DNA of 40,545 nt from a virus: IMG/VR virus record IMGVR_UViG_3300033388_003266, positions 1 through 40,545 of that record, one strand, 5' to 3'. A program made the position numbers and the translations under genes. Below, one piece after another: positions 9,856 through 19,513 of this stretch; within the stretch, counting starts at the first letter, position 1, and the number at the start of each line of letters is the position of its first letter. The notes beneath the pieces are model-generated. The model saw only the letters and a program-made list of their open reading frames with translations. It ran no database searches and was not told where the DNA came from.

Positions 9856-9948
9856 TGATCATCAGCCGGAAGCACACTCCCTGATTGAGTTCAAAGTTTT
9901 GCTTGACCGGCACTTTTAAAGTACAGCGTTTTAGATCTTTGAAAATAT

Positions 9949-10106
9949 GGTGTGGTGGCGGAATGGGTAGACGCTACACCGAGACATCCCAGTGGTACTG
10001 ATCAACTGCGGTACGCATTACGGAACATGGAAAAAGGTAATTACTTTTCGATTGAACTAACGTGGAGGATGTTATGCAAGGTTCAAATCCTTGCCCACAC
10101 CTACCA
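9949..10106 (+). other. tRNA-like domain without an anticodon arm, at the 5' end of the large RNA
   Basis: A perfect 7-bp acceptor-like helix GGTGTGG (9949-9955) with CCACACC (10095-10101) encloses a D-arm like that of tRNA-Leu (TGGCGGAAT.GGTAGACGC) and a canonical T-arm (10076-10094, loop TTCAAAT); TACCA follows at the 3' side. Where the anticodon arm should be there is a 6-bp helix ACATCC/GGATGT (9984-9989 with 10067-10072) enclosing about 77 nt. The total is 158 nt, far longer than a tRNA-Leu. No U33-anticodon loop can be found, so this is not a normal decoding tRNA. It resembles the tRNA-like part of a tmRNA in architecture, but no tag frame is present. Confidence 0.6.
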
Positions 10107-10720
10107 AAAACTGAAGCGGGACAGTAAATCCGCCCCGGCTTGCCCCTGCTGAAAAAACGGGCTCTGCCGGATGAAGAAAGGCCCGTACCATTGACCATCG
10201 AAACGGGCAAAGAACAAAGTCGGCCCATCTGCCGGATCTACCCCATGGTGGTCCAGGCCATTGTCAGAGCCGATCAGTAAGGCCCGGGAGACTCCGGGCA
10301 GATTAGCAGCATGGGGCCAGGTTGTGGCTTGGTCCCATGCTTAACCAATAACACCCGCCACGCCTCTGGTTTAAGCGCACCCAGGCGGGTTACTTAAAAA
10401 GGTGGTGATTAAACTGTGGGGGATGGAGTAAATCCTTTGACATAAGGAAGGGGGCTGCGCATCCTAAAAACGCACAACAACATCGGAAGGGGGTGATGAG
10501 TTCAAATCTCAACCCATAAAAAGGAGATGCCTATGAATGTACGAATCAGATAAAATTCCTTCTAACCTCACCCAGGTTACCGGCCCGAAAAGCACCCACG
10601 CAAAGTAGGGGGAACCTGAAACCAAAAATGCCATAACCGGTCCCATGGAGGCAACGATGCCCAGAATTAGAAACCCCGATAAATAAAGTCCAGTTTCCAC
10701 AAACTGCTAACATGCATATA

Positions 10721-10752
10721 AACCCCCTGGTTGATTGGCCAGGGGGTTTTTT
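10721..10752 (+). terminator. Rho-independent terminator of the large RNA
   Basis: Plus strand: AACCCCCTGG (10721-10730), an 8-nt loop and CCAGGGGGTT (10739-10748), followed by a T run to 10752. The T tract is only on the plus side, which fixes the direction. The run reaches the stop codon of the convergent HNH gene. Confidence 0.85.
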
Positions 10753-10999
10753 ATTTGTGATGAATGGCGTGACATTCCCAGCAAAGACATTCCAAGTTTT
10801 CCGGTACGTCCTGCCCCCCCTGAGACTTCCGCTTGATGTGGTGACAGTGTAGGGCATGTCCTTCTGGTGGGTACATCTTCCCGCATCGTTCACAGGTATA
10901 GTTTTCTCGCAGAAATACCGCCCGGACTATCTTAGGCGGTATTCTGGTTTGCTTCTTTTTTTTCTTTGGCGGCTTCGGCTGGGGTCTGAAAGTGTTCAC
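10751..10999 (-). CDS. Small HNH endonuclease, 82 aa
   Basis: A single HNH domain: CERCG (36-40), LHCHHIKRKSQGG (50-62) and the final CLCWECHAIHHK, with a basic Pro/Lys-rich N-terminus (PKPPKKKKK). The start is GTG at 10999, overlapping the stop of the gene upstream (GTGA), so translation is coupled. Standalone HNH proteins of this size occur in phages as nicking or homing enzymes or with the terminase; here it ends exactly at the terminator of the large RNA. Its association with that RNA is noted under findings. Confidence 0.85.
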   Translation of the reverse strand: MNTFRPQPKPPKKKKKQTRIPPKIVRAVFLRENYTCERCGKMYPPEGHALHCHHIKRKSQGGQDVPENLECLCWECHAIHHK

Positions 11000-11346
11000 C
11001 TGATATTAATCTCACTCTTTGCAATGCTGATCAAGGTACGATATGCCTCGATATTTGAATGAATCCGCTTGATATTCTCCTTGGAAGCTTTCAAGATGCC
11101 TTCTGAGATCTTGAACAATAGCCTTACCTCTGCCGTTTCTCCGTCCATTAGTATCTTGGCAGCAGTGGCAGACTTTTTATCTGTTATGAACGCTAAAAAA
11201 GCCTCTGATTTAGCTTGTCTGTATAGACGTTCTTTTTTAGCAACGTCTTCACTCAGATCTGCCAGCTTGTTTGTTTCTGTTTCCAGTTCTGCCAGTTTGG
11301 CAACGTAGCCTTTCTTTAGACTTAGGATATCAGTGTAGTCCTGCAT
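10996..11346 (-). CDS. Hypothetical helical protein, 116 aa
   Basis: An all-helical, charged protein (KKGYVAKLAELETETNKLADL...; RLYRQAKSEAFLAF...; ASKENIKRIHSNIEAYRTL) with no Cys, probably a coiled-coil bundle. The ATG follows TAAGGAGAG. It lies between the coiled-coil protein of the recombination cluster and the small HNH gene. Similar helical proteins accompany YqaJ/Erf modules in other phages. The function is unknown. Confidence 0.7.
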   Translation of the reverse strand: MQDYTDILSLKKGYVAKLAELETETNKLADLSEDVAKKERLYRQAKSEAFLAFITDKKSATAAKILMDGETAEVRLLFKISEGILKASKENIKRIHSNIEAYRTLISIAKSEINIR

Positions 11347-11375
11347 ACTCTCTCCTTACATGGTTGGTTTGTTAT

Positions 11376-12362
11376 TTAATACTGAATTGATACAGCAGGG
11401 ATTTTGCCCTGAATGATAGCCGTCAAAATAACTTTGCTTGTATCTTCATCAATTTCAAGCCCCATGAGTGCTGCAAGGGCCTTACGATTAACACCCTTCT
11501 GGTGATTCCTGTTGGCGGCTTTTTTATCAGCAATCGCTTTTTCATCGTCGGCTTTTTTCTTTGCTGCCAGTTGCTCAAGCCTGGTTTTCTCTGCTGCATC
11601 GTCCTTGGCTTTTTGCACTGCTGCTGCCTGGTCGCGCTCTGCCTGAGCCGCTGCCTCTGCCGCGTCTGCTGCTGCCTGGATTCTATCACGCTCGGCCTGG
11701 GCCCTTGCCTCTTCTTCCCGTTCTTCGGCCTCTTTTTTCTCACGCTCGGCACGTTCCTTGGCATCAATTTCAGCCTGGATCTTTTCTTTTGCTTCACGCT
11801 CGGCAGTCTCCGCAGCTTCTTTTTTGATCCGTTCCTCAATTGCAAGCCTGTCTTTCTCTGCCTGGGCTTTGGCTTCCTTGGCTTTGCGATCTTCTTCGGC
11901 CTTGGCAAGCTCTGCCTCTTTACGGGCCATTTCACGTTCACGGCTTACAAGGTCGTTTTCTGCCAGTGCATCGTCCCATTCAAGGAGGTAGATTTCAAAG
12001 TCACGTTCTTTTTGCACCCGGATCTTTTCGGCATCTTCATAATCAGTCAAGGGCTTTCTTGTTGTGGTCTGGATTTCCGTCATGGTATCACGGAAGCTTT
12101 TGCACTCCTGGTCAATGACCTTCAGGGCCGCTTTTTTGTCTTTGACATAAAGAATCCTGCTGTCATCAACATATTTTCTGGACCGGCCAATATCGGCGGC
12201 AAATGATCTCAGGCTGTCCCGGTCCTTGCTTTTCCCCATGTCAAGGGATGGTGCATCGAATTCTTCAACCTTGGCCCTGACTCCTGCCAAAACTGGGTCC
12301 AGCCCTTTGGGAACAAAAATTTCTACCGGGGTGATTGTTTTCGGCACGAGATCGGTTGTCAT
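11376..12362 (-). CDS. Long coiled-coil protein of the recombination cluster, 328 aa
   Basis: The N-terminal domain (about 1-130, with KAALKVIDQECKSFRDTM...TTRKPLTDYEDAEK) is followed by about 150 residues of nearly uninterrupted Glu/Lys/Ala-rich coiled coil and a compact C-terminal domain (NRNHQKGVNRKALAALMGLEI...). This three-part plan is seen in phage proteins encoded beside exonuclease and annealing genes. The start overlaps the YqaJ stop (ATGA), so the two are coupled. A scaffold or accessory role in recombination is likely but inferred. Confidence 0.75.
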   Translation of the reverse strand: MTTDLVPKTITPVEIFVPKGLDPVLAGVRAKVEEFDAPSLDMGKSKDRDSLRSFAADIGRSRKYVDDSRILYVKDKKAALKVIDQECKSFRDTMTEIQTTTRKPLTDYEDAEKIRVQKERDFEIYLLEWDDALAENDLVSREREMARKEAELAKAEEDRKAKEAKAQAEKDRLAIEERIKKEAAETAEREAKEKIQAEIDAKERAEREKKEAEEREEEARAQAERDRIQAAADAAEAAAQAERDQAAAVQKAKDDAAEKTRLEQLAAKKKADDEKAIADKKAANRNHQKGVNRKALAALMGLEIDEDTSKVILTAIIQGKIPAVSIQY

Positions 12363-12961
12363 GATTTAAGCTCCTCAATTAAAGTGTTCAAATCTCTCAA
12401 GAATATTTTCACTTCTGCCTTTATGATCCTGATTAAATCCTCGTCTCTCTCAACTTCCATGATAAACGGTTTTACACCAGGGAAATAAGACATGAACCAC
12501 CAGGAACCCCAACCGGTTAAAGCAAGGCTTGATTGAACCTGTAACTTATAAGCCGTTGGAAGCTTTTCAGCCTCAAGGTATTTGATATGGTTTTTCAGCA
12601 TTGGGCATTTGATTTCTAATCCAGTATCATCAAAATATCCATCAGGTGAAACGTGGCTTGACTTTGATTCATCAGCCCAGATCATGGCGCATTCTAAGAC
12701 GGTTACATTTTTAATCAAAGAGAATAAGTCTCTTGCCTCTGGTTCATGATCATTACCCCACTGCATTTCATACGTTTTAAACAGAGGCTTTGATTTTCCG
12801 GTTAAAATTTGGCTTGCTTTCTCATAAAGATAATCGCCACGCTGTTTTGACCTGTCACCTCTTGAGGTTATAATCTTCTGTATACCGGTGCCGCCAATTG
12901 ATTTTTTCCTGGCAGCGTGCCATTCGTCAGATCCCTGTATAAAATCAGTTTCAATCAGCAT
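12359..12961 (-). CDS. YqaJ/lambda-type viral exonuclease, 200 aa
   Basis: This enzyme degrades one strand of DNA ends so that an annealing protein can act. The PD-(D/E)XK core is visible as SPDGYFDD with Asp107 and LEIKCP with Glu116 and Lys118; the N-terminal QGSDEWHAARKKSIGGTGI and Glu73 also match the family, as does LPTAYKLQVQSSLALTGW after the core. It overlaps the Erf gene by 11 bases, the usual exonuclease-annealase pair, and the next gene by 4. Confidence 0.9.
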   Translation of the reverse strand: MLIETDFIQGSDEWHAARKKSIGGTGIQKIITSRGDRSKQRGDYLYEKASQILTGKSKPLFKTYEMQWGNDHEPEARDLFSLIKNVTVLECAMIWADESKSSHVSPDGYFDDTGLEIKCPMLKNHIKYLEAEKLPTAYKLQVQSSLALTGWGSWWFMSYFPGVKPFIMEVERDEDLIRIIKAEVKIFLRDLNTLIEELKS

Positions 12962-13694
12962 TTTTAGAGGCCTCCGCTTTAGCTTTGAGAGCGTTTAAGC
13001 ATCTGCCGAAGTCATATGATGGCATTTCTTCCACGGATTCAATTTTAGCCCATGCTGTGAAGGATTCAACCTTGTACCCGTCAATGGAATTTATCATGTC
13101 AAGGATCTGGGAGGCTTGCTTTTCATCAATGAATTTAACAGGGTCTGAAGTTGCCCCATCATCGTCCTGATCATCAGTGGCAAGCCCGGTCATGGCAAGA
13201 ATTGTATATCTCTGCAAATAAGAAATGGTGGATCCCATTGCCTGGATAGCATTTTTTTGGCCTGACGTATCATGGGCTGCTGACAATGCTGTGCTTTCTG
13301 AATGTCCCAGCTCATGGGTTATTGTGCAGGTAACAGTTATTATTTTTTCGCTCTGGTCAAGTGGCCACGCTGCGGTAAGGCCATGTTTACCAAGGGCAGC
13401 ATTTATTGTGCCGGTTACATTTCCAAGGCTTGCATGGTTGTAATTTGTATTGCCGTAGGAAACATTCTTATCCTTTGATATCCTTGGTGGATTAGCCTTG
13501 AATTCTGCCATGGCTTTTGTATATGCTTTTTTAGCCTGGTATGCGTCATGCTCTTTCTGAAGGGCCATCATTTCTCTTAGAGTATCAGGATCTCCGCCAG
13601 CAGCAAAAAATGATTGTGCCATTTCCATAGGTGATTTTGGTAAAACCTGTATTGCGCTTTCCGGTACTGTCATTACTTCGGTGCTTTTTCCCAT
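12951..13694 (-). CDS. erf: Erf-family single-strand annealing protein, 247 aa
   Basis: The core pattern SYGNTNYNHASLGNVTGTINAALGKHGLTAAWPL, with the later STISYLQRYTILAMTGLATDDQDDDG, is the ERF superfamily signature known from P22 Erf. These ring proteins anneal complementary strands during phage recombination. The start is the ATG at 13694 after GGGAGAA; the longer frame runs back through the preceding gene and is rejected. The stop overlaps the exonuclease start. Confidence 0.9.
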   Translation of the reverse strand: MGKSTEVMTVPESAIQVLPKSPMEMAQSFFAAGGDPDTLREMMALQKEHDAYQAKKAYTKAMAEFKANPPRISKDKNVSYGNTNYNHASLGNVTGTINAALGKHGLTAAWPLDQSEKIITVTCTITHELGHSESTALSAAHDTSGQKNAIQAMGSTISYLQRYTILAMTGLATDDQDDDGATSDPVKFIDEKQASQILDMINSIDGYKVESFTAWAKIESVEEMPSYDFGRCLNALKAKAEASKNAD

Positions 13695-13711
13695 GCTGTT
13701 CTCCCTTTGGT

Positions 13712-13984
13712 TTAATTTTTCCATAGCTTGCATTTTGGCGATGTTTTTACCCATTGGCCACCGGTTAACGGGAAGTCCCAATGATATATGCTCCCGCTTC
13801 TGAAATGAGCACATCCCTCATAGCAGCTATCGTTTTTATTGATCGGGCAAGGTTTTTTAAACATTGCTATTTTAGCAGACTCGACCCAGCTTTCTGCTTC
13901 TATCCGATCTCGCTCTTTCTTTTCATCAAGCTTTAACTGATCAGCCTTTTTCTTTTCTTTATATTTTCTTATTATGTTTAGCAT
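13712..13984 (-). CDS. Cys-containing hypothetical protein, 90 aa
   Basis: A basic helical N-terminus (IRKYKEKKKADQLKLDEKKERDRIEAE) is followed by a Cys-rich part: PCPIN, SCYEGCAHF and PKCKLW. The last four Cys plus a His could bind zinc or iron-sulfur. The ATG follows a GGGGG tract. It lies 17 bases before erf in the same operon. The family is not recognised. Confidence 0.65.
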   Translation of the reverse strand: MLNIIRKYKEKKKADQLKLDEKKERDRIEAESWVESAKIAMFKKPCPINKNDSCYEGCAHFRSGSIYHWDFPLTGGQWVKTSPKCKLWKN

Positions 13985-13998
13985 GATGCTACCCCCTT

Positions 13999-14193
13999 TT
14001 ACAAATAAACAACAGGCGTTTCAACATCAACCAAAACGCACCCGTCTCTGAATTCTACCGTTGCTGCCACTCGTTTGCCTGCTATCAAAACGCAGGAGTC
14101 GTATTCCTTGATCCTGGCCTCAATCTCTTTTTCCATTTGCTCGTCCATCTTAGTGTAAACGTGGAAAAAATCTGTCTTGAACTGGCCACTCAT
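13999..14193 (-). CDS. Hypothetical protein, 64 aa
   Basis: A 64-residue acidic protein with a helical middle (DEQMEKEIEARIKEYDS) and a beta-rich end (VAATVEFRDGCVLVDVETPVV). The start ATG at 14193 shares bases with the stop of the upstream gene (TGATG) and follows GGGGGATG; a GTG one codon earlier is less likely. No family is recognised. Confidence 0.6.
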   Translation of the reverse strand: MSGQFKTDFFHVYTKMDEQMEKEIEARIKEYDSCVLIAGKRVAATVEFRDGCVLVDVETPVVYL

Positions 14194-14408
14194 CACATCC
14201 CCCTCAAAAATTCAATTATATCACGTTCGTACCTTGGTTTAAGCCTGCCAAATTCCATTCTTGAAACCGGCTGGCCGTTTTTTATGATATCGTCAATGTC
14301 AATCATCGGGTCCAGTTCTTCCTGGTTTCTGGTTCCCGGCTGGGCTGGCTCTGCTATTGTGTACCGTATTACTGTCTGTGGGTCCGTTTTTGGGCTGTAT
14401 TCGCTCAT
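14193..14408 (-). CDS. Hypothetical protein, 71 aa
   Basis: A polar, Pro-rich N-terminus (SPKTDPQTVIRYTIAEPAQPGTR) is followed by an acidic and then basic C-terminal half with MIDIDDIIKNG and RYERDIIEFLRG. The ATG follows AGAGGAAATC. It is one of the short genes near the start of the leftward operon, the position of early regulators in many phages. No DNA-binding motif is clear. Confidence 0.6.
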   Translation of the reverse strand: MSEYSPKTDPQTVIRYTIAEPAQPGTRNQEELDPMIDIDDIIKNGQPVSRMEFGRLKPRYERDIIEFLRGM

Positions 14409-14422
14409 GATTTCCTCTTTGG

Positions 14423-14572
14423 TTAAAGCGACATAAAAAACAGTGCGATCATCAAACTGACAAAAAATAAAATTGCCTTAATTGCCTCAGTTATAGGATT
14501 CAACTTCGACAGCTTCCTATTTGACTGGTTGAATATGGTCTGATTTCTTAATGCTTGGCCTTGATAGTTCAT
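14423..14572 (-). CDS. Small tail-anchored membrane protein, 49 aa
   Basis: A polar 28-residue N-terminus (NYQGQALRNQTIFNQSNRKL) is followed by a C-terminal hydrophobic segment (about 30-49, AIKAILFFVSLMIALFFMSL). The ATG follows AAAAGGAGCC. A C-tail-anchored early phage protein could act on the host membrane, for example in superinfection exclusion, but that is speculation. Confidence 0.55.
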   Translation of the reverse strand: MNYQGQALRNQTIFNQSNRKLSKLNPITEAIKAILFFVSLMIALFFMSL

Positions 14573-14583
14573 GTTGGCTCCTT

Positions 14584-14742
14584 TTAATCGGTTCTTTCTA
14601 TTGATCCCAAATAGGCCTCACACTCAGAAATTGTTTCAAGACGTTTGCCATTGATGGTCACCGTTCCGTCCCCGTTGTTTTTGAAGGAAAGACTTCTATT
14701 TTTGCATGGCTGGATTAAATAATAAATGTATGATTCGCTCAT
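14584..14742 (-). CDS. First gene of the leftward operon, 52-aa protein
   Basis: A 53-codon frame starting MSESYIYYLIQPCKNRS, with a beta-rich middle (SFKNNGDGTVTINGKR) and an acidic helical end (LETISECEAYLGSIE). The ATG follows TTAAGGAGATACC, a strong site. It is the first gene after the leftward promoter and the structured leader. The function is unknown; it is too short and beta-rich for a standard repressor. Confidence 0.6.
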   Translation of the reverse strand: MSESYIYYLIQPCKNRSLSFKNNGDGTVTINGKRLETISECEAYLGSIERTD

Positions 14743-14761
14743 GGTATCTCCTTAATTTAGT

Positions 14762-14804
14762 TTCCCCGGTTACTCCCCCCGAGACAACCCCAGGGGGCCG
14801 GGAA
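14762..14804 (-). promoter_or_regulatory. Structured 5' leader of the leftward operon
   Basis: Nested inverted repeats: TTCCC(C)GG (14762-14769) with CCGGGAA (14798-14804), and inside them CCCCC (14776-14780) with GGGGG (14793-14797). It lies between the leftward promoter and the first start codon, so it folds in the mRNA leader. There is no T tract, so it is not a simple terminator. It shares CCCGGTTACT and GAGACAACC with the hammerhead at 18.2 kb. Confidence 0.5.
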
Positions 14805-14822
14805 TATTATCACACCTGATGG

Positions 14823-14851
14823 AAAGTATCATTGTGGGTTTGGCTTGTCAA
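14823..14851 (-). promoter_or_regulatory. Leftward early promoter
   Basis: The minus strand reads TTGACA (14851-14846), a 17-bp spacer and TACTTT (14828-14823), directly upstream of the structured leader. With the rightward promoter it forms an inverted repeat CTTGTCAA...TTGACAAG in which the two -35 boxes face each other. Confidence 0.55.
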
Positions 14852-14872
14852 GTACAAAATGTATTTTAGTTG

Positions 14873-14901
14873 TTGACAAGCTGTACAACATATGAAACAA
14901 T
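14873..14901 (+). promoter_or_regulatory. Rightward early promoter and possible operator
   Basis: TTGACA (14873-14878) is followed by a 17-bp spacer and AACAAT (14896-14901), a weak -10. The -35 box begins a 16-bp imperfect palindrome TTG-N3-AGCT-N3-CAA (14873-14888), a plausible operator for the Cro-like product of the first gene. Confidence 0.5.
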
Positions 14902-14935
14902 GCGTTAAATCAAACAACAGAAAAGGAGAAACGTT

Positions 14936-15160
14936 TTGGAAAATGGTTACCTTTTAGAAGAAGCACTGGACAACATAGACCTGATGGGTCTTATGCCAAA
15001 ACTTGAAAAGAGGGGATTTAAAGAAGCCAGCGTCAAAAAGGCATTTATAAGGGGGTCAATATCAAAGGACCTGGCCAGCGCACTTGGTGACATAACGTCA
15101 ATTTCTCGTTTGTTCTGGTTGTATCCTGCCCAGTTCCATAAAAATGGTAAGAGGAGATAG
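14936..15160 (+). CDS. Cro-like DNA-binding protein candidate, 74 aa, TTG start
   Basis: The sequence GSISKDLASALGDITSISRLFWLYPAQF (about 43-70) follows the pattern of small phage Cro or HigA-like regulators, where an HTH is followed by a FWL-Y/N-P turn. It is the first gene of the rightward operon, next to divergent promoters with palindromes, the classical place for Cro. The start is TTG (14936) after AAAAGGAG; no ATG exists in the frame at the right distance. No divergent CI-like repressor is seen, so it may simply tune early transcription. Confidence 0.6.
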   Translation: MENGYLLEEALDNIDLMGLMPKLEKRGFKEASVKKAFIRGSISKDLASALGDITSISRLFWLYPAQFHKNGKRR

Positions 15161-15161
15161 T

Positions 15162-15293
15162 ATGGAAAAGATCCACAACACAAACAGCAACACCCAGCAG
15201 GTTAAATCTTACCCGGCAACCGCCCAAAATATCCAGCTTGTATATTGGTTTGGATGGGTAGCTGGGTTGAGACTGGCAGGGATAATCAGATAA
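15162..15293 (+). CDS. Hypothetical protein, 43 aa
   Basis: A 44-codon frame 1 base after the stop of the Cro-like gene, with GAGGAGATAGT as ribosome binding site. The N-terminus is polar and Asn/Gln-rich (NTNSNTQQVKSYP); the C-terminal half is hydrophobic (LVYWFGWVAGLRLAGIIR) and may be an amphipathic or membrane helix. It is supported by spacing and the start site only. Confidence 0.5.
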   Translation: MEKIHNTNSNTQQVKSYPATAQNIQLVYWFGWVAGLRLAGIIR

Positions 15294-15332
15294 CATGCTT
15301 TTAAGTATACAATGAGATAAAGGAGAAAAAGA

Positions 15333-15620
15333 ATGGAATTTGAAAGAAACCCTAACGGATCAAACGAATTATTAAATGGTGAAGGTTTTTACATCAGTTA
15401 CAATCCAGCCCCTTGCGCAGGGCTTAGCTGTTTCGAATCTGACACTGGCGGATCTGAAACCGCACTTGTAATTCCAAATGATCCAGAGACCGAATTCAGA
15501 ATTTTAAATGGTGACTTCAGGAAAGACTACAAATCTCTGGCACCAGACGGAGTCGCAGGTTGTTTGGCTTTTTACGAGAGAATGAAACCCACTCATGATT
15601 CAAGTTGGTCGGGGCAATAA
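15333..15620 (+). CDS. Conserved phage hypothetical protein, 95 aa
   Basis: An acidic 95-residue protein with the pattern GEGFYISYNP near 17-26, which I associate with small phage proteins of unknown role, and an end YERMKPTHDSSWSGQ. The ATG follows AAAGGAG. There are three Cys, but no ribbon spacing. It is an accessory gene of the rightward operon; the function is unknown. Confidence 0.65.
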   Translation: MEFERNPNGSNELLNGEGFYISYNPAPCAGLSCFESDTGGSETALVIPNDPETEFRILNGDFRKDYKSLAPDGVAGCLAFYERMKPTHDSSWSGQ

Positions 15621-15652
15621 CATATACTCTGGAAAAATAAGGATTGATAAAA

Positions 15653-15841
15653 ATGGAAAGAGTATCCCAGGTGGACATAAGGAAAAGCTTAGAAGTAGTT
15701 GATTTATTGACTAAGGCAGGGGCTGGGTTCGTTCCGATCCCTTATTCAAATGATGAAGAGAAGTGCGCCCTGATCACTGTTTTGACTTCCAAGTTAAACG
15801 AAATGATGGAAGATTGCGGCGTATCAACCGACCAAGAATAG
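15653..15841 (+). CDS. Hypothetical protein, 62 aa
   Basis: A short mostly helical protein (SQVDIRKSLEVVDLLTKAGAGFV...ALITVLTSKLNEMMEDC). The ATG at 15653 follows AAGGATTGA, the same start context used by several later genes of this operon; the TTG 9 bases upstream is less likely. No family is recognised. Confidence 0.6.
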   Translation: MERVSQVDIRKSLEVVDLLTKAGAGFVPIPYSNDEEKCALITVLTSKLNEMMEDCGVSTDQE

Positions 15842-15849
15842 GAGGGATC

Positions 15850-16158
15850 ATGGAAGTATACAACGCAAAAGATAGGCTGCCAGAAGACAATACATATGTC
15901 GTGGCTCGATACACTGGTGGTAACTGGAGCGACAGCGACGATCAAAACGGCGTAAATTGGAAGGTGGTTAAATTTGTTCGCGGTCTATCTAAATCAGAAA
16001 GAGATGCGCTACCAGACAGTGACCAAAGGAAACGCGTATACAGTGGCGCAGACGAGGGCGGGAATAACTTTTTACCGTATCAATGGAAAGAATTTGGCCC
16101 AGGTTCGTTTTTTGGACAAGAAGTAGACTATTGGATGATGTTACCTATACGATTATAA
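15850..16158 (+). CDS. DUF551-like protein, 102 aa
   Basis: The pattern KDRLPEDNTYVVARY near the start and GQEVDYWMMLPIRL at the end matches the DUF551 type, small phage and prophage proteins with conserved Trp and Pro, usually in accessory regions. The middle DEGGNNFLPYQWKEFGPGSFFGQ also fits what I know of such proteins. The start is the ATG at 15850 after GGAGGG; the longer frame would run through the previous gene. Its biochemical function is unknown. Confidence 0.7.
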   Translation: MEVYNAKDRLPEDNTYVVARYTGGNWSDSDDQNGVNWKVVKFVRGLSKSERDALPDSDQRKRVYSGADEGGNNFLPYQWKEFGPGSFFGQEVDYWMMLPIRL

Positions 16159-16191
16159 TAACACCATATTGGACATCAGGAGGATTGAAAA
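16159..16191 (+). repeat. Intergenic linker of a repeated family (copy 1)
   Basis: A 33-nt linker starting TAACACCATATTGGACATC and ending AGGATTGAAAA directly before the ATG. Similar linkers (ATA..TTGGAC, then AAGGA(C/T)TGA before the start) lie before the next two genes. Confidence 0.5.
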
Positions 16192-16500
16192 ATGGAAAAA
16201 GTAATATTCGACTACCCGGAAGTACAAGACGTTGATATAGCCTTTGGAATCGGCATTACACCAAAGATATTAAATCAAGCTAAAGAGGCTGGATTTTATG
16301 ACAAACGGACCCCTTACAATGATCTTTTTTCAAAGCTGTTTTTTAGCGGTGGAAAGCTTAATTTCAAAAAGGGACTGAACCCAGATTCTCAGACCAGGGC
16401 AACAAGATATCTAAAGGCCGTCATGGGATCTTTTGAACCCAAACATGAAGAGAAAGAAGCTGTTTGTGCAATGATTCTTTCTGAGTTAGTGGAAATATAA
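16192..16500 (+). CDS. Hypothetical phage protein, 102 aa
   Basis: A mixed alpha/beta protein: YPEVQDVDIAFGIGITP..., then NDLFSKLFFSGGKLNFKKGL, then a helical C-terminus MGSFEPKHEEKEAVCAMILSEL. The last segment is a pattern I have seen in phage accessory proteins, but there is no named function. It starts after AGGAGGATTGA. It is non-essential cargo by context. Confidence 0.65.
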   Translation: MEKVIFDYPEVQDVDIAFGIGITPKILNQAKEAGFYDKRTPYNDLFSKLFFSGGKLNFKKGLNPDSQTRATRYLKAVMGSFEPKHEEKEAVCAMILSELVEI

Positions 16501-16531
16501 CCGCATTTTTTGGACTACAAAGGATTGAATT

Positions 16532-16765
16532 ATGGAAGTTAAGCACGGGAATGGAAAAACAGAATATGGCCCTGGAGTTAGCATTGAGCTTAACGGAGAT
16601 GAAATTGCAACGGCAATAGATGCATATTTAGTTTCTCATAACATTTATGTTTCTGGACCTCGAACTATAAGAGTTGGCGGTAATTTGATTAAAAGGGGTA
16701 GCATCTATGTTGACCCTTCAGGGTTCGTGATTCATAAAGATGAAAAGATATCTGGGCGTGGTTAA
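16532..16765 (+). CDS. Hypothetical protein, 77 aa
   Basis: A beta-rich 77-residue protein: GVSIELNGDEIATAIDAYL, GPRTIRVGG, YVDPSGFVI. The GPRTI...VDPSGFV pattern recurs in phage accessory regions. There are no Cys. The ATG follows AAAGGATTGA. The function is unknown. Confidence 0.65.
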   Translation: MEVKHGNGKTEYGPGVSIELNGDEIATAIDAYLVSHNIYVSGPRTIRVGGNLIKRGSIYVDPSGFVIHKDEKISGRG

Positions 16766-16799
16766 TAACAGAATATTTGGACGTATAAGGACTGAAAAC
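16766..16799 (+). repeat. Intergenic linker of a repeated family (copy 2)
   Basis: A 34-nt linker containing ATAACAGAATATTTGGACG and AAGGACTGA. The core ATAACAGAATAT recurs before the MT-A70 gene (21,854-21,883), and TTGGAC recurs in the two linkers upstream. Confidence 0.5.
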
Positions 16800-17051
16800 A
16801 TGAAACAGGAAATGCTTACACCAGAAGAAATAGAACAGGCTTTCAAGGGCACAAACTTTGGAAGCGCAGCGCCTGAAAATATCATAAAATGGAGCCTGTT
16901 AAAAATAGCCAGTGGGTATCTTACCGGATACACTGCCCAGTGCATACTCCAAGAGCTTGGGTTGTTATCAAAAGCGAAAAGAACGGCACTCACAAAGCGT
17001 GGAAAATCATGCTTGTGGGATTATTTCAAAGCCGGGTACAACCACGAATAA
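16800..17051 (+). CDS. Hypothetical protein, 83 aa
   Basis: A helical protein with LTPEEIEQAFKGTNFG near the start and a central SGYLTGYTAQCILQELGLL followed by LTKRGKSCLWDYF. The latter resembles small phage proteins with a winged-helix-like C-terminal region (GYTAQCILQELGL...LTKRGK), so DNA binding is possible. The start is the ATG at 16800 after AAGGACTGA; the longer frame is a read-through of the linker. Confidence 0.65.
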   Translation: MKQEMLTPEEIEQAFKGTNFGSAAPENIIKWSLLKIASGYLTGYTAQCILQELGLLSKAKRTALTKRGKSCLWDYFKAGYNHE

Positions 17052-17096
17052 CATTTAATTTATTATCAGTAGTTAATTATAAAAAGGAGCAATGAT

Positions 17097-17813
17097 TTGT
17101 GGATATTACCGAAAAACCACCCACTGTATTGTCTATATGCACCGGGTACGGCGGACTCGAGGAAGGCATTGAAAGAGTGCTTGGAAAAATCAACGTCCTC
17201 ACTCATGTGGAGATCGAAGCCTTTGCCATTGCGAACCTGGTTAACAAAATGGAAACAGACCAAATGGCTCCAGTACCTATCTGGACGGATCTTAAAACAT
17301 TCCAGGCAAAGTTCTTTCGAGGTTTCGTTGATATCCTTACTGGCGGCTACCCCTGCCAGCCTTTTTCAGCAGCAGGCTTGCGGAAGGGCCCGGACGACCC
17401 AAGACACCTGTGGCCCTTTATCAAAACAATCATCGGAGACTGCCGACCAAGATGTATTTTTTTCGAAAATGTTGAAGGACATCTCAGTAAAGGGATCACC
17501 GAAGTCCTCGCAGATCTGGAAAAAATGGCGTATGTGTCTAAGTGCGGAGTATTCAGCGCGGCTGAAGTTGGCGCATACCAAGTACGGAAACGAGTCTTTA
17601 TATTGGCCTACTCCAACAGCTTCGATGTACAAAGCCGCTGGGGGATGCTCCCAGGAGTATATCGACAGAAGGAGGGAGTGCGGGAAGAACGATTTGGCAG
17701 AAGCCGCCGTAGATGGAAGGGTAGGGAGTGGTACGCTGAACCCGGATTGGGTAGAATCGCTAATGGGATTACAGACCAGGTGGACCGCCTTAGACTACTC
17801 GGCAATGGAGTAG
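17097..17813 (+). other. Overlapping alternate reading frame across the Dcm-type gene, 238 codons
   Basis: This frame stays open for 238 codons across the same DNA as the methyltransferase gene. Its first half looks like a shadow. The last third is different: KKWRMCLSAEYSARLKLAHTK, YWPTPTAS and TLNPDWVESLMGLQ form a pattern I know from annotated phage methylase-like proteins (WPTPT ... LNPxWVExLMG). The same bases in the main frame encode LAYSNS and EPGLGRIANG...LLGNGVV, also conserved. Either both frames are translated, or one set of database proteins is a frame artefact. I list it as a candidate, not as a certain gene. Confidence 0.35.
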
Positions 17814-17875
17814 TCCCAGAAACAGCGGAAAAGGCATTTAGAACGCTCCATAAACAATTAACTACTGACTTATAA
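17099..17875 (+). CDS. Dcm-type C5-cytosine DNA methyltransferase, 258 aa
   Basis: The catalytic set is complete: motif I SICTGYGGLEEG (12-23), motif IV TGGYPCQPFS with Cys86, ENV (123-125), VGAYQVRKRVFILA containing QxRxR (161-165) and the C-terminal LLGNGVVP. It would methylate cytosine in phage or host DNA. The target-recognition region is short. The start is GTG (17099) after AAGGAG; an ATG seven bases upstream is in another frame. It is the second C5 enzyme in the window, and only weakly similar to the one at 3.9 kb. Confidence 0.9.
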   Translation: MDITEKPPTVLSICTGYGGLEEGIERVLGKINVLTHVEIEAFAIANLVNKMETDQMAPVPIWTDLKTFQAKFFRGFVDILTGGYPCQPFSAAGLRKGPDDPRHLWPFIKTIIGDCRPRCIFFENVEGHLSKGITEVLADLEKMAYVSKCGVFSAAEVGAYQVRKRVFILAYSNSFDVQSRWGMLPGVYRQKEGVREERFGRSRRRWKGREWYAEPGLGRIANGITDQVDRLRLLGNGVVPETAEKAFRTLHKQLTTDL

Positions 17876-17917
17876 TTGGTTGATCTCAACTTTATTTTAT
17901 TTTTCTTTGAGAAGGTG

Positions 17918-17946
17918 TTGACATTCTCTAAGGTCCTTGGTATAAA
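17918..17946 (+). promoter_or_regulatory. Internal sigma70-type promoter of the rightward operon
   Basis: A perfect TTGACA (17918-17923), 17-bp spacer and TATAAA (17941-17946) lie in the 114-bp gap after the methyltransferase gene. It would drive the short basic gene, the hammerhead and the genes beyond. Confidence 0.7.
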
Positions 17947-17989
17947 GAACCATGAGCGGGAAATAAACCACAAAACAAGGAGACGTATC

Positions 17990-18214
17990 ATGTCAAGAAC
18001 AAGCAAAGCGAATAACCCGGTAATGATGGTAGGCGGATCGAGTACTTTTAATCTTCTGGGTATGATCAAGGCAATCTATTCTAAAGCTGTTCCCGGACCC
18101 GCAGTAAACAAAGGGGTTGCAAAACCTTCCTATTCCGGCAGCACGGGTTCTTTCAAACAGAACCAGCGCAGAGAAAGAAAACTGTCCCATTGCAGACGAG
18201 TTAAAAGGGTATAA
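17990..18214 (+). CDS. Basic hypothetical protein, 74 aa
   Basis: A strongly basic, Ser/Gly-rich protein (VKNKGVAKPSYSGSTGSFKQNQ-like composition, ending HCRRVKRV), probably disordered and nucleic-acid binding. The start is the ATG at 17990 after AAGGAGACG, just downstream of a consensus promoter. Its stop codon lies 1 base before the 5' strand of the hammerhead ribozyme, so ribozyme cleavage would set the 3' end of its message. No family is recognised. Confidence 0.65.
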   Translation: MSRTSKANNPVMMVGGSSTFNLLGMIKAIYSKAVPGPAVNKGVAKPSYSGSTGSFKQNQRRERKLSHCRRVKRV

Positions 18215-18215
18215 A

Positions 18216-18269
18216 GTCGAAACACCCTCCGGGGTGTCTGGCCGGGTGGGTCCCGGTTACTGATGAGAC
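18216..18269 (+). ncRNA. Type II hammerhead ribozyme
   Basis: All invariant hammerhead positions are present in the correct order. The stem II 3' strand GTC (18216-18218) is followed by GAA (18219-18221). Stem III is ACACCC/GGGTGT (18222-18227 with 18232-18237) with a TCCG loop. The cleavage-site nucleotide is C18238 (GTC triplet). Stem I is an 8-bp helix 18239-18246/18252-18259 with loop TGGGT. CTGATGA (18260-18266) follows, and the stem II 5' strand GAC (18267-18269) closes on the first GTC. Stem II is the open end, which defines type II. Predicted cleavage is between 18238 and 18239. Hammerheads are known in phages and metagenomes; this one separates two genes of one operon. Confidence 0.88.
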
Positions 18270-18288
18270 AACCAAAAAGGAGAATTTA

Positions 18289-18489
18289 ATGCCACCAGGT
18301 GGAGCAAGGCGAGATAAAAAAGGCAAGCTGCTAACCGTCCCGAAAGGCCTGGGAAAGCCAACCGTAAAAAGGCAATTTGTCATTTTCAAATCCCAGGACG
18401 ATCATATGGACGAAAACGGCTTGAATAAATCGAAATTCGTTCGGGATGCCCTGGCGGATAAAATCGAACAAGAATCAACTGATAGATAA
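18289..18489 (+). CDS. Small basic protein, possible ribbon-helix-helix regulator, 66 aa
   Basis: A basic N-terminus (GGARRDKKGKLLTVPKG) is followed by KRQFVIFKSQDDHMDENGLNKSKFVRDALADKIEQE, which reads as beta-strand, helix, turn, helix and resembles CopG/Arc-type ribbon-helix-helix proteins. The ATG follows AAAGGAG. It is the first gene after the hammerhead, so its message would begin with a ribozyme-made 5'-OH end. The DNA-binding call is tentative. Confidence 0.6.
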   Translation: MPPGGARRDKKGKLLTVPKGLGKPTVKRQFVIFKSQDDHMDENGLNKSKFVRDALADKIEQESTDR

Positions 18490-18506
18490 TATCAAGGAGG
18501 CAATAA

Positions 18507-19193
18507 ATGCTAAACAAACAGGGCCCAGGGAAAATAGACTGGACGGACTGGAGTTTCAACCCCATCACCGGGTGCAAACACGGATGCCCATACTGCTACA
18601 TGCTTCGGATGGAAAAACGCTTTCCTGGGATTATGGAACCTGCATTTAAGCCCGAATACCTTGAACGATTCAAAAGCGTTCGCAAGGTCAAGGCCGGGGA
18701 TAAAATCTTTGTCGGATCTTCTGGTGATATGTGGGGGGATTGGGTTAAGCCATCATGGATAGATGCTGTCTTGGAATGCACAAAAAATAGGCCTGATGTA
18801 ATATTCCAATTCCTTACAAAAAACCCAAAGGAATATAACAACTGGAATCTCAGTAATTATAAAAATTGCTGGTTCGGAACCACCGTTGACGGAACCGACA
18901 GAACAAGGATGAATATTGATATCCTAATATACACAATGAACAATAACTTAACAAAGTTTGTTTCGTTCGAGCCGTTACTTGAAATGCCAAAAATACGCAT
19001 TGCGGATATGAAATTTCTTGACTGGATCATCATAGGCGCAGATTCGACCAAGGGAGCAAAAAAACCACCGATAGGATGGATTCAATACTTGATCGATATG
19101 GCCTATGAAGTGGGTACACCCGTCTGGGTAAAAGACAATTACGGATACCCGGAAGTCATCAAAGAATCATTCAAAGGAGAAACCAATGCCTGA
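18507..19193 (+). CDS. Phage Gp37/Gp68 (DUF5131) radical-SAM-like protein, 228 aa
   Basis: The N-terminus reads WTDWSFNPITGCKHGCPYCY with Cys23, Cys27 and Cys30, a CxxxCxxC iron-sulfur motif typical of radical SAM proteins. Further on are VGSSGDMWGDWV, FQFLTKNPKEY and FVSFEPLLEMP...LDWIIIGADSTKGAK, the order expected for the phage Gp37/Gp68 family. The reaction is not known for the family. The start is the ATG at 18507 after AAGGAGG. It may modify nucleic acid or protein during takeover, which is inference. Confidence 0.85.
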   Translation: MLNKQGPGKIDWTDWSFNPITGCKHGCPYCYMLRMEKRFPGIMEPAFKPEYLERFKSVRKVKAGDKIFVGSSGDMWGDWVKPSWIDAVLECTKNRPDVIFQFLTKNPKEYNNWNLSNYKNCWFGTTVDGTDRTRMNIDILIYTMNNNLTKFVSFEPLLEMPKIRIADMKFLDWIIIGADSTKGAKKPPIGWIQYLIDMAYEVGTPVWVKDNYGYPEVIKESFKGETNA

Positions 19194-19482
19194 AGAAAGA
19201 AGATGTGACTTGTGCAAATATGAGAAGGATGCGCCATGTATCGCCAGAGAATGCAATTCAGTGAATGGCTTGCTGGAATTTGTATCAAAGGGTGCCGAAT
19301 CAGAAAACCGTTCTGCTGATCTTGATTCTAAGCTGACCTTGGACCAGTGGGAAATTTCATGGCTTGATATAGACACACTTGATATTGTCGGTCCTAATGG
19401 GCAACAGTGCCTTCTAACTGGCGGTGATTTTGAATCAATGCTGTCTGCTCTTTGTGGGGCGTTTAGAGAAGGACAGGAATAA
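19186..19482 (+). CDS. Hypothetical protein with N-terminal Cys motif, 98 aa
   Basis: The N-terminus carries CDLCKYEKDAPCIARECN, a four-Cys unit that could bind zinc. The rest is acidic and ends in SMLSALCGAFREGQE. The ATG overlaps the end of the radical-SAM-like gene and follows AAGGAG, so the two are coupled and may act together. No family is recognised. Confidence 0.65.
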   Translation: MPEERRCDLCKYEKDAPCIARECNSVNGLLEFVSKGAESENRSADLDSKLTLDQWEISWLDIDTLDIVGPNGQQCLLTGGDFESMLSALCGAFREGQE

Positions 19483-19513
19483 CCTACTGATGGATCGTAA
19501 TGGGGAGGACAAA

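Follow-up and report, generated by a model that had tools for sequence, protein, structure and literature searches.

The window, the 40,545-nt stretch analysed here, contains a type II hammerhead ribozyme between two same-strand ORFs, an identification to which the sequence, the structure, the Rfam score and covariation all point. The ribozyme adds a member to the known class RF02276 (Hammerhead_II), and its self-cleavage is predicted to fall after C18238. On balance we think it probable, though barely so, that this ribozyme acts as a substitute for a terminator, which would give the upstream mRNA a hairpin-capped 3′ end past its stop codon and free the downstream message.

The ribozyme and its surroundings

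The initial annotation had read the element as an intact type II hammerhead, and a cmscan search with the Rfam models bore this out. RF02276 matches positions 18215–18277 (+) with 45.4 bits against a cut-off of 37 (E 2.7e-6), and the alignment spans the full model (1–66). The invariant core proposed there is complete in the sequence, including CUGAUGA, GAA, the A15.1–U16.1 pair (18222/18237) and the GUC triplet (18236–18238), and the 8-bp stem I, the 6-bp stem III and the open 3-bp stem II all lie at the positions assigned to them (Table 1). Stems I and III are closed and stem II is open in both the sequence and the fold, which is the type II permutation. The ribozyme shares its core, permutation and stem lengths with the RF02276 model, from which it differs in a tail of AACCA instead of AGCCa and in a predicted pseudoknot of only three pairs. 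A scan with the Rfam hammerhead models, permissive thresholds included, found no further hammerhead in the window.

Table 1. Features of the ribozyme and of the neighbouring genes in the window
Feature	Position	Strand	Remarks
C5 DNA methyltransferase	17099–17875	+	same cluster as the ribozyme
Promoter-like TTGACA-17-TATAAA	17918–17946	+	just upstream of the 74-aa ORF
74-aa basic ORF	17990–18214	+	AAGGAG-type ribosome site; stop TAA 18212–18214
Type II hammerhead ribozyme (stems III, I, II and core)	18216–18269	+	RF02276, fold, covariation
Stem II	18216–18218/18267–18269	+	GUC/GAC, 3 bp, open
G12-A13-A14	18219–18221	+	sequence
Stem III hairpin	18222–18227/18232–18237	+	6 bp counting A15.1–U16.1
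Stem III loop UCCG (cUCCGg)	18228–18231	+	sequence
C17	18238	+	predicted cleavage site 18238/18239, from hammerhead core position
Stem I hairpin	18239–18246/18252–18259	+	8 bp, two of them G·U; loop UGGGU; sequence and fold
Loop I UGG, putative pseudoknot 5′ half	18247–18249	+	pairs with 18272–18274
C3–A9 CUGAUGA	18260–18266	+	sequence
Tail AACCA	18270–18274	+	sequence
CCA tail, putative pseudoknot 3′ half	18272–18274	+	3 nt ahead of ribosome site
AGGAG ribosome site of the next gene	18278–18282	+	6 nt ahead of ATG 18289
66-aa ORF	18289–18489	+	putative, function unproven; no IMG/VR relative
DUF5131 gene (radical-SAM-like)	18507–19193	+	PF07505, E 6.4e-33

The minimum-free-energy fold of 18210–18280 contains all three stems exactly. 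Folding energy by itself was dropped as evidence, the z value being only −1.43. Stem III is the sole hairpin of 18205–18238 (−10.6 kcal/mol) and is weaker than stem I (−8.0 vs −11.7 kcal/mol), opposite to the situation in 105 of the 132 type II ribozymes among the matches listed, where stem III is the more stable of the two. A loose type II descriptor (stems of at least 4/4/2 bp) gave 18 matches across 4032 simulated windows that kept the dinucleotide composition, and no hammerhead of any type was found when the sequences of 415 loci (3.56 Mb) were reversed.

A pseudoknot joining loop I to the 3′ tail, absent from the first reading, is described as a feature of the type II family in the cited part of PMC3088659. 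In the window, the putative counterpart is short, with three Watson-Crick pairs (UGG/CCA). Among the matches listed, 55 of 101 distinct type II ribozymes have a Watson-Crick loop I/tail run of at least 4, compared with 24.5 for shuffled partners (maximum 35 in 500 shuffles). With G·U pairs included, a run of at least 5 occurs in 74/132 of the matches listed (shuffles 36, maximum 46). A separate group of type II ribozymes (L022, L010, L056, L050 and others) has a 4-bp stem II, a very short loop I and no such pseudoknot.

The window is an IMG/VR virus record with genes for portal, head and tail spike proteins and a DnaB-like helicase, in addition to YqaJ/ERF recombination genes. The promoter-like element, which had escaped the first reading, is the sole match of its kind in the window and has no counterpart in 100 shuffles; a stock promoter scanner omits it because it demands T at position 6 of the −10 box. 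The putative promoter and the ribozyme would frame a message of ~0.3 kb. Translation of the upstream 74-aa ORF confirms that its product is basic, and the ORF has neither a family match nor an IMG/VR relative. The ATG of the 66-aa ORF stands 19 nt past stem II. Its assignment as an RHH regulator found no support, because the top Pfam hit is DUF6290 with E 0.027, below the cut-off of that model. We also set aside the RHH fold for this ORF, for which the structure prediction was too poor (pLDDT 69.9, pTM 0.27). The DUF5131 gene matches Radical_SAM with E 0.0017, below the cut-off of that model, and also matches the candidate defence models PDC-M30B and PDC-M41B (E ~5e-30).

Two other RNA-like elements were observed in the window. 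The first is a near-match to the abiF RNA (RF03085) at 10354–10390 (+), with 36.2 bits against a cut-off of 37, and no Abi_2 protein was found in the window. Because abiF RNA acts in trans to neutralise its toxin (PMC12373285, part cited), this element may be a solitary RNA antitoxin that serves as a decoy against a host AbiF. The second is a tRNA-like element at 9949–10102 (+) with acceptor, D and T arms and a 65-nt insert. It was reported by ARAGORN in relaxed mode only, and default ARAGORN gave no tRNAs in the window.

Relatives and the comparative set

When 7.5 kb of the window was searched against phage records at the DNA level, six records matched, each over 1% of the query. Two of them aligned at the methyltransferase, and the other four (two phages, two records each) exactly at the ribozyme. 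A blastn search of 18205–18290 against 50,697 phage records retrieved four Streptomyces phages with two records each. These are Daudau (87.1% identity across 62 of the 86 bases), Spernnie (82.3%), Caelum (88.1%) and phiELB20 (85.4%), the latter two each across a shorter stretch, and all four are cultured Arquatrovirinae. Their type II hammerheads, 82–88% identical to that of the window over the aligned part, have the putative pseudoknot placed alike and keep the core nucleotides (GAAAC, GTCT and ACTGATGA), so that the core loss named as a refutation in the initial annotation was not observed in these phages. The annotated gene gp77 of Daudau ends 1 nt ahead of stem II, as the upstream ORF does in the window. 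The Streptomyces phages differ in that they carry 9–11 copies each, belong to high-GC hosts, and hold their ribozymes among genes unlike those of the window, which has one copy. Whole-record scans gave 9, 9, 10 and 11 RF02276 matches at E ≤ 0.1 in Daudau, Spernnie, Caelum and phiELB20, of which 8, 9, 5 and 10, respectively, are above the cut-off. The type II hammerheads are unannotated in the viewed stretches of these records, and several annotated start codons lie inside ribozymes, such as that of Daudau gp74.

In the alignment of the five sequences, 94.8% of the cells pair, compared with 34–51% for slid versions. Of the 20 pairs, 3 have changed on both sides, and stem II, stem III and the pseudoknot contribute one apiece. 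The covariation score was matched by 3 of 500 shuffles. Because five sequences are few, the covariation gives modest support. Stem I of the phage copies is near the Rfam consensus; therefore, recent common descent is not required to explain the similarity.

No relative keeping the gene order of the window was found through the 66-aa and 74-aa ORFs (in IMG/VR) or through 16 loci of relatives selected by the major head protein. RF02276 matched none of these 16 loci. However, 15 of them have no similarity to positions 16700–19500 and the sixteenth has only a 20-base match, so they are silent on core loss. The DUF5131 gene has one IMG/VR relative (L002, 62% identity), with a different gene upstream and no ribozyme. 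A plasmid search returned nothing.

For comparison, hammerheads were collected by pattern scans, which yielded at least 120 stretches in IMG/VR for the type II order, at least 120 for type I, 44 for type III, and at least 117 for type II in GTDB genomes. For the held-out set, a new type III pattern was used; it gave 97 stretches, from which one further candidate was removed as type II. The structural finders require stems of at least 4/4/2 bp (type II, stems III/I/II) and 4/3/4 bp (types I and III, stems I/II/III), and the scan patterns bias the sets toward CGAAAC and ACTGATGA sequences. Identical copies were removed before counting in the discovery and held-out sets alike, leaving at least 108 type II, at least 135 type I and 49 type III viral ribozymes, and at least 24 type II ribozymes in genome contigs. 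In the non-redundant sets, rows sharing a 14-mer were also dropped (39 of 49 type III kept; held-out, 40 of 47). Genes were taken as ORFs of at least 40 codons, no gene finder being used.

Whole-record scans with RF02276 of the 80 listed type II pattern records gave 43 with a match at E ≤ 0.01 and 26 above the cut-off. By batch, these were 20 and 14 of 40, and 23 and 12 of 41, the batch of 41 including the L002 record, which has no pattern hit and no RF02276 match. One 57-kb record (G098, locus L508) has 24 RF02276 matches, all above the cut-off, at 9932–17520 (−) in one operon, nearly one per gene; other records have 11, 7 and 6 matches at E ≤ 0.01.

Stop codons and hairpins around phage hammerheads

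We defined abutment as a same-strand ORF whose stop codon ends −3 to +5 nt from the ribozyme, which in type II means from stem II. Among the matches listed, 76/108 viral type II ribozymes abut a stop codon, compared with 132/4320 random same-strand positions in the same loci, and the corresponding values in genome contigs are 18/24 and 22/960. With one ribozyme counted per locus, 57 of the 86 among the matches listed abut. The gap peaks at −1 and 0, and 27 of the 30 stop codons at −1 are TAG, in which the final G doubles as the first base of stem II. The gap in the window is +1, in accordance with the initial annotation that the ribozyme begins 1 base past the stop codon. In the L508 array, 21 of 24 ribozymes abut a stop codon and the other three have no qualifying ORF. 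A first control that used other GAAAC sites gave 20% but was contaminated by neighbouring ribozymes of the arrays, and it was replaced by random positions at a distance from ribozymes. Abutment was found for 56/135 type I ribozymes among the matches listed. For type III it was found in 2/49, and in 2/40 of the held-out set, without excess over random positions (73/1960).

By the depositors' gene calls, 13 of 38 type II ribozymes in the four Streptomyces phages, which are related to one another, abut a stop codon, compared with 480/20000 random positions (2.4%); one weak phiELB20 match on the + strand (18.3 bits) was excluded from the 38. A stop codon lies within 16 nt for 25 of the 38. Because 25 of the 38 are non-abutting (12 at 10–16 nt, the others further), abutment is weaker in these phages than in the ORF-based counts. 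Abutment is real but not universal, and the rate counted from ORFs may hold only for the phages sampled.

Among the matches listed, 20/135 upstream ORFs of type I ribozymes end at −10, within the core TGA. We do not claim that these genes end in the ribozyme, because every type I core carries TGA and the peak may be due to chance reading frames.

Cleavage of a type III ribozyme would leave an upstream product without a hairpin, because the cut lies only ~6 nt past the 5′ end of the ribozyme. A separate hairpin of at least 6 bp between the stop codon and the type III ribozyme was observed in 21 of the 39 non-redundant ribozymes (shuffles 4.5, maximum 9 in 100), and one of at least 8 bp in 16/39 (shuffles 0.97, maximum 3). 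The held-out set gave 14/40 (shuffles 3.9, maximum 9 of 200) and 4/40 (shuffles 0.60, maximum 3), respectively. The effect thus replicates but is smaller in the held-out set, and 18/39 discovery and 26/40 held-out ribozymes are without the extra hairpin. Strong separate hairpins of this kind were seen, for example, at L148 4057, L159 1470, L168 841 and L453 11873. Within the type III loci, hairpins of at least 8 bp follow 17 of the 37 genes that precede type III ribozymes, compared with 26 of the 322 remaining ORF stops. For the type III upstream product, the final 40 nt have a folding z of −2.24 ± 0.35 (n = 39), and of −1.17 ± 0.26 in the held-out set (n = 40).

Hairpins on the 5′ side are not in excess for type II (8/126; shuffles 10.3) or type I (12/128; shuffles 12.4) among the matches listed. 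The distance from the stop codon to stem III in type II ribozymes (median 7, IQR 5–10, n = 117 among the matches listed) has the same median and range as that from the stop codon to the extra hairpin of type III (median 7, IQR 5–10, n = 22, hairpin-positive cases only). Stem III of type I begins at a median of 29 nt past the stop codon (n = 113 among the matches listed).

Past the ribozyme, hairpins are not enriched for type I (6/112 vs 7.2) or type II (5/119 vs 6.3) among the matches listed, and the value for type III (7/41 vs 3.9) equals the highest count among the shuffles (7). Type I downstream products have a folding z of −0.03 ± 0.11 over their first 40 nt (n = 113 among the matches listed). 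A rule by which the downstream product would begin with a 5′ hairpin was rejected on the basis of these type I values.

Neither the stop-codon rule nor the type III hairpin rule was found in the open-access literature as searched by title and the start of the abstract. In the main text of PMC3088659, 'stop codon' occurs 0 times, and no 3′ hairpin is mentioned in the cited part. A word search of PMC11300833 gave no mention of type II or phages.

A possible role in mRNA 3′-end formation

Hammerhead arrays of prophages cleave in vitro and in E. coli, according to the cited part of PMC3088659. The array in the ardA-region prophage of Agrobacterium tumefaciens described there resembles the present case in that its ribozymes flank single genes in phage operons. 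The prophage arrays are multi-copy, unlike the single ribozyme of the window, and their authors name no stop-codon rule in the main text. The same source places the HHphage ribozyme of the haloviruses HF1/HF2 just ahead of a start codon, at 13 nt compared with 19 nt in the window, and describes a variant core for it, whereas the core in the window is complete. Theta ribozymes of gut phages are likewise self-cleaving RNAs proposed to make RNA ends, but they have an HDV-like fold and act beside tRNAs, not mRNAs (PMC10879173, part cited). Intrinsic (Rho-independent) terminators also end the mRNA in a GC-rich hairpin shortly past the stop codon. Unlike at such a terminator, the end in the window is predicted from cleavage, there is no U-run and transcription would continue downstream. 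Stem III itself does not qualify as an intrinsic terminator, being followed by CUGGCC, and the terminator scan listed none there.

For the proposed substitute for a terminator, the following course of events can be suggested. The transcript probably starts near the promoter-like element, and the ribozyme would cut it after C18238. The upstream product would be the mRNA of the 74-aa ORF, in which the TAA is followed by 7 nt and the 6-bp cUCCGg hairpin and which ends with a 2′,3′-cyclic phosphate. The downstream product would be a 5′-OH mRNA for the 66-aa ORF and the DUF5131 gene, with stem I first and the ribosome site free. Selection most likely acts on the upstream 3′ end, which would be formed while RNA polymerase reads on. 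We take 3′-end formation as the selected output because a 3′ hairpin on the upstream product is kept across the permutations. Cleavage may in addition await a pause in translation of the 74-aa ORF, because a ribosome at its stop codon should cover stem II and half the core. Hairpins hinder 3′ exonucleases, and stem III would be expected to protect the 3′ end in this manner. Several points stand against 3′-end formation as the role of the ribozyme in the window, namely that it is single and not part of an array, that its stem III is weaker than its stem I and that its pseudoknot has three pairs. The type I stem III, which lies ~29 nt and not 7 nt past the stop codon among the matches listed, is a further point against it, as are the non-abutting majority in the Streptomyces phages, the type III ribozymes without an extra hairpin, the smaller held-out effect and the failure to find a relative with the gene order of the window.

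An alternative explanation, which we consider unlikely as the purpose of the ribozyme, is a switch gated by translation, in which terminating ribosomes keep the ribozyme unfolded and cleavage occurs only when the upstream gene is untranslated. The abutment of type II ribozymes on stop codons suggests such an arrangement. A ribosome protects ~10 nt past the A site, and an E. coli terminator placed 5 bp from a stop codon falls from ~90% to <10% termination (part cited of PMC4824070). A ribosome at the stop codon in the window would, by this measure, reach ~18224 and cover the 5′ strand of stem II, G12–A14 and three bases of stem III. By this analogy, such a ribosome would keep the ribozyme open, and translation-gated cleavage appears plausible. 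Against the switch as the purpose, the compactness of phage genomes alone may account for the tight packing, the type III ribozymes rarely abut a stop codon in either set, and most of the ribozymes in the annotated Streptomyces phages do not.

Compact genomes also underlie a second explanation, equally unlikely in our view, that ribozymes lie wherever room exists and that the type III hairpins aid folding. The open stem III of type III is a short one, with a median of 5 bp, and in most cases no gap separates it from the extra hairpin, which may instead stack on this weak stem or insulate it. However, the open stems of type I and type II ribozymes show no adjacent hairpins beyond the shuffled level given above, and compactness alone would predict that type III ribozymes abut stop codons too.

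It is slightly less likely still that the downstream product is the purpose, that is, a 5′-OH mRNA for the 66-aa ORF and the DUF5131 gene that is capped by stem I, spared decay dependent on the 5′ end and has its ribosome site freed. Stem I does stand at the new 5′ end, and a start codon lies 0–45 nt past the type II ribozyme in 90/108 IMG/VR and 20/24 genome-contig cases among the matches listed. In HF1/HF2, a transcript 5′ end lies within 3 nt of the hammerhead cut (PMC3088659, part cited). On the other hand, the type I product, which is without stem I, gains no 5′ hairpin, and type III compensates on the 3′ side.

A chance match or an inactive relic is very improbable in view of the E value, the complete core, the exact intergenic fit, the compensatory changes relative to the four phages and the rarity of loose matches in simulated windows, even though 4 of 18 consensus-conforming hammerheads tested failed to cleave (PMC3088659, part cited) and no relative shares the gene order of the window.

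Extending 3′-end formation beyond the window, we put forward, tentatively and at less than even confidence, that phage hammerheads are a general system of mRNA 3′-end formation, in which stem III (types I and II) or a separate hairpin, often added in type III and as far from the stop codon as stem III is in type II, would form the end and those fused to stop codons would be gated by ribosomes. The role of hammerheads in prokaryotes and phages was described as an open question in a 2017 review (PMC6155905, part cited). Hairpin-ended mRNAs at stop codons offer a testable answer, by which stem III of type II and the extra hairpin of type III should matter and translation should compete with cleavage. 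The cultured phages with 9–11 copies each are suited to mapping of RNA ends. If this is true, phage operons would be chains of single-gene mRNAs made without termination of transcription, and the ribozyme in the window would be one minimal unit of such a chain.
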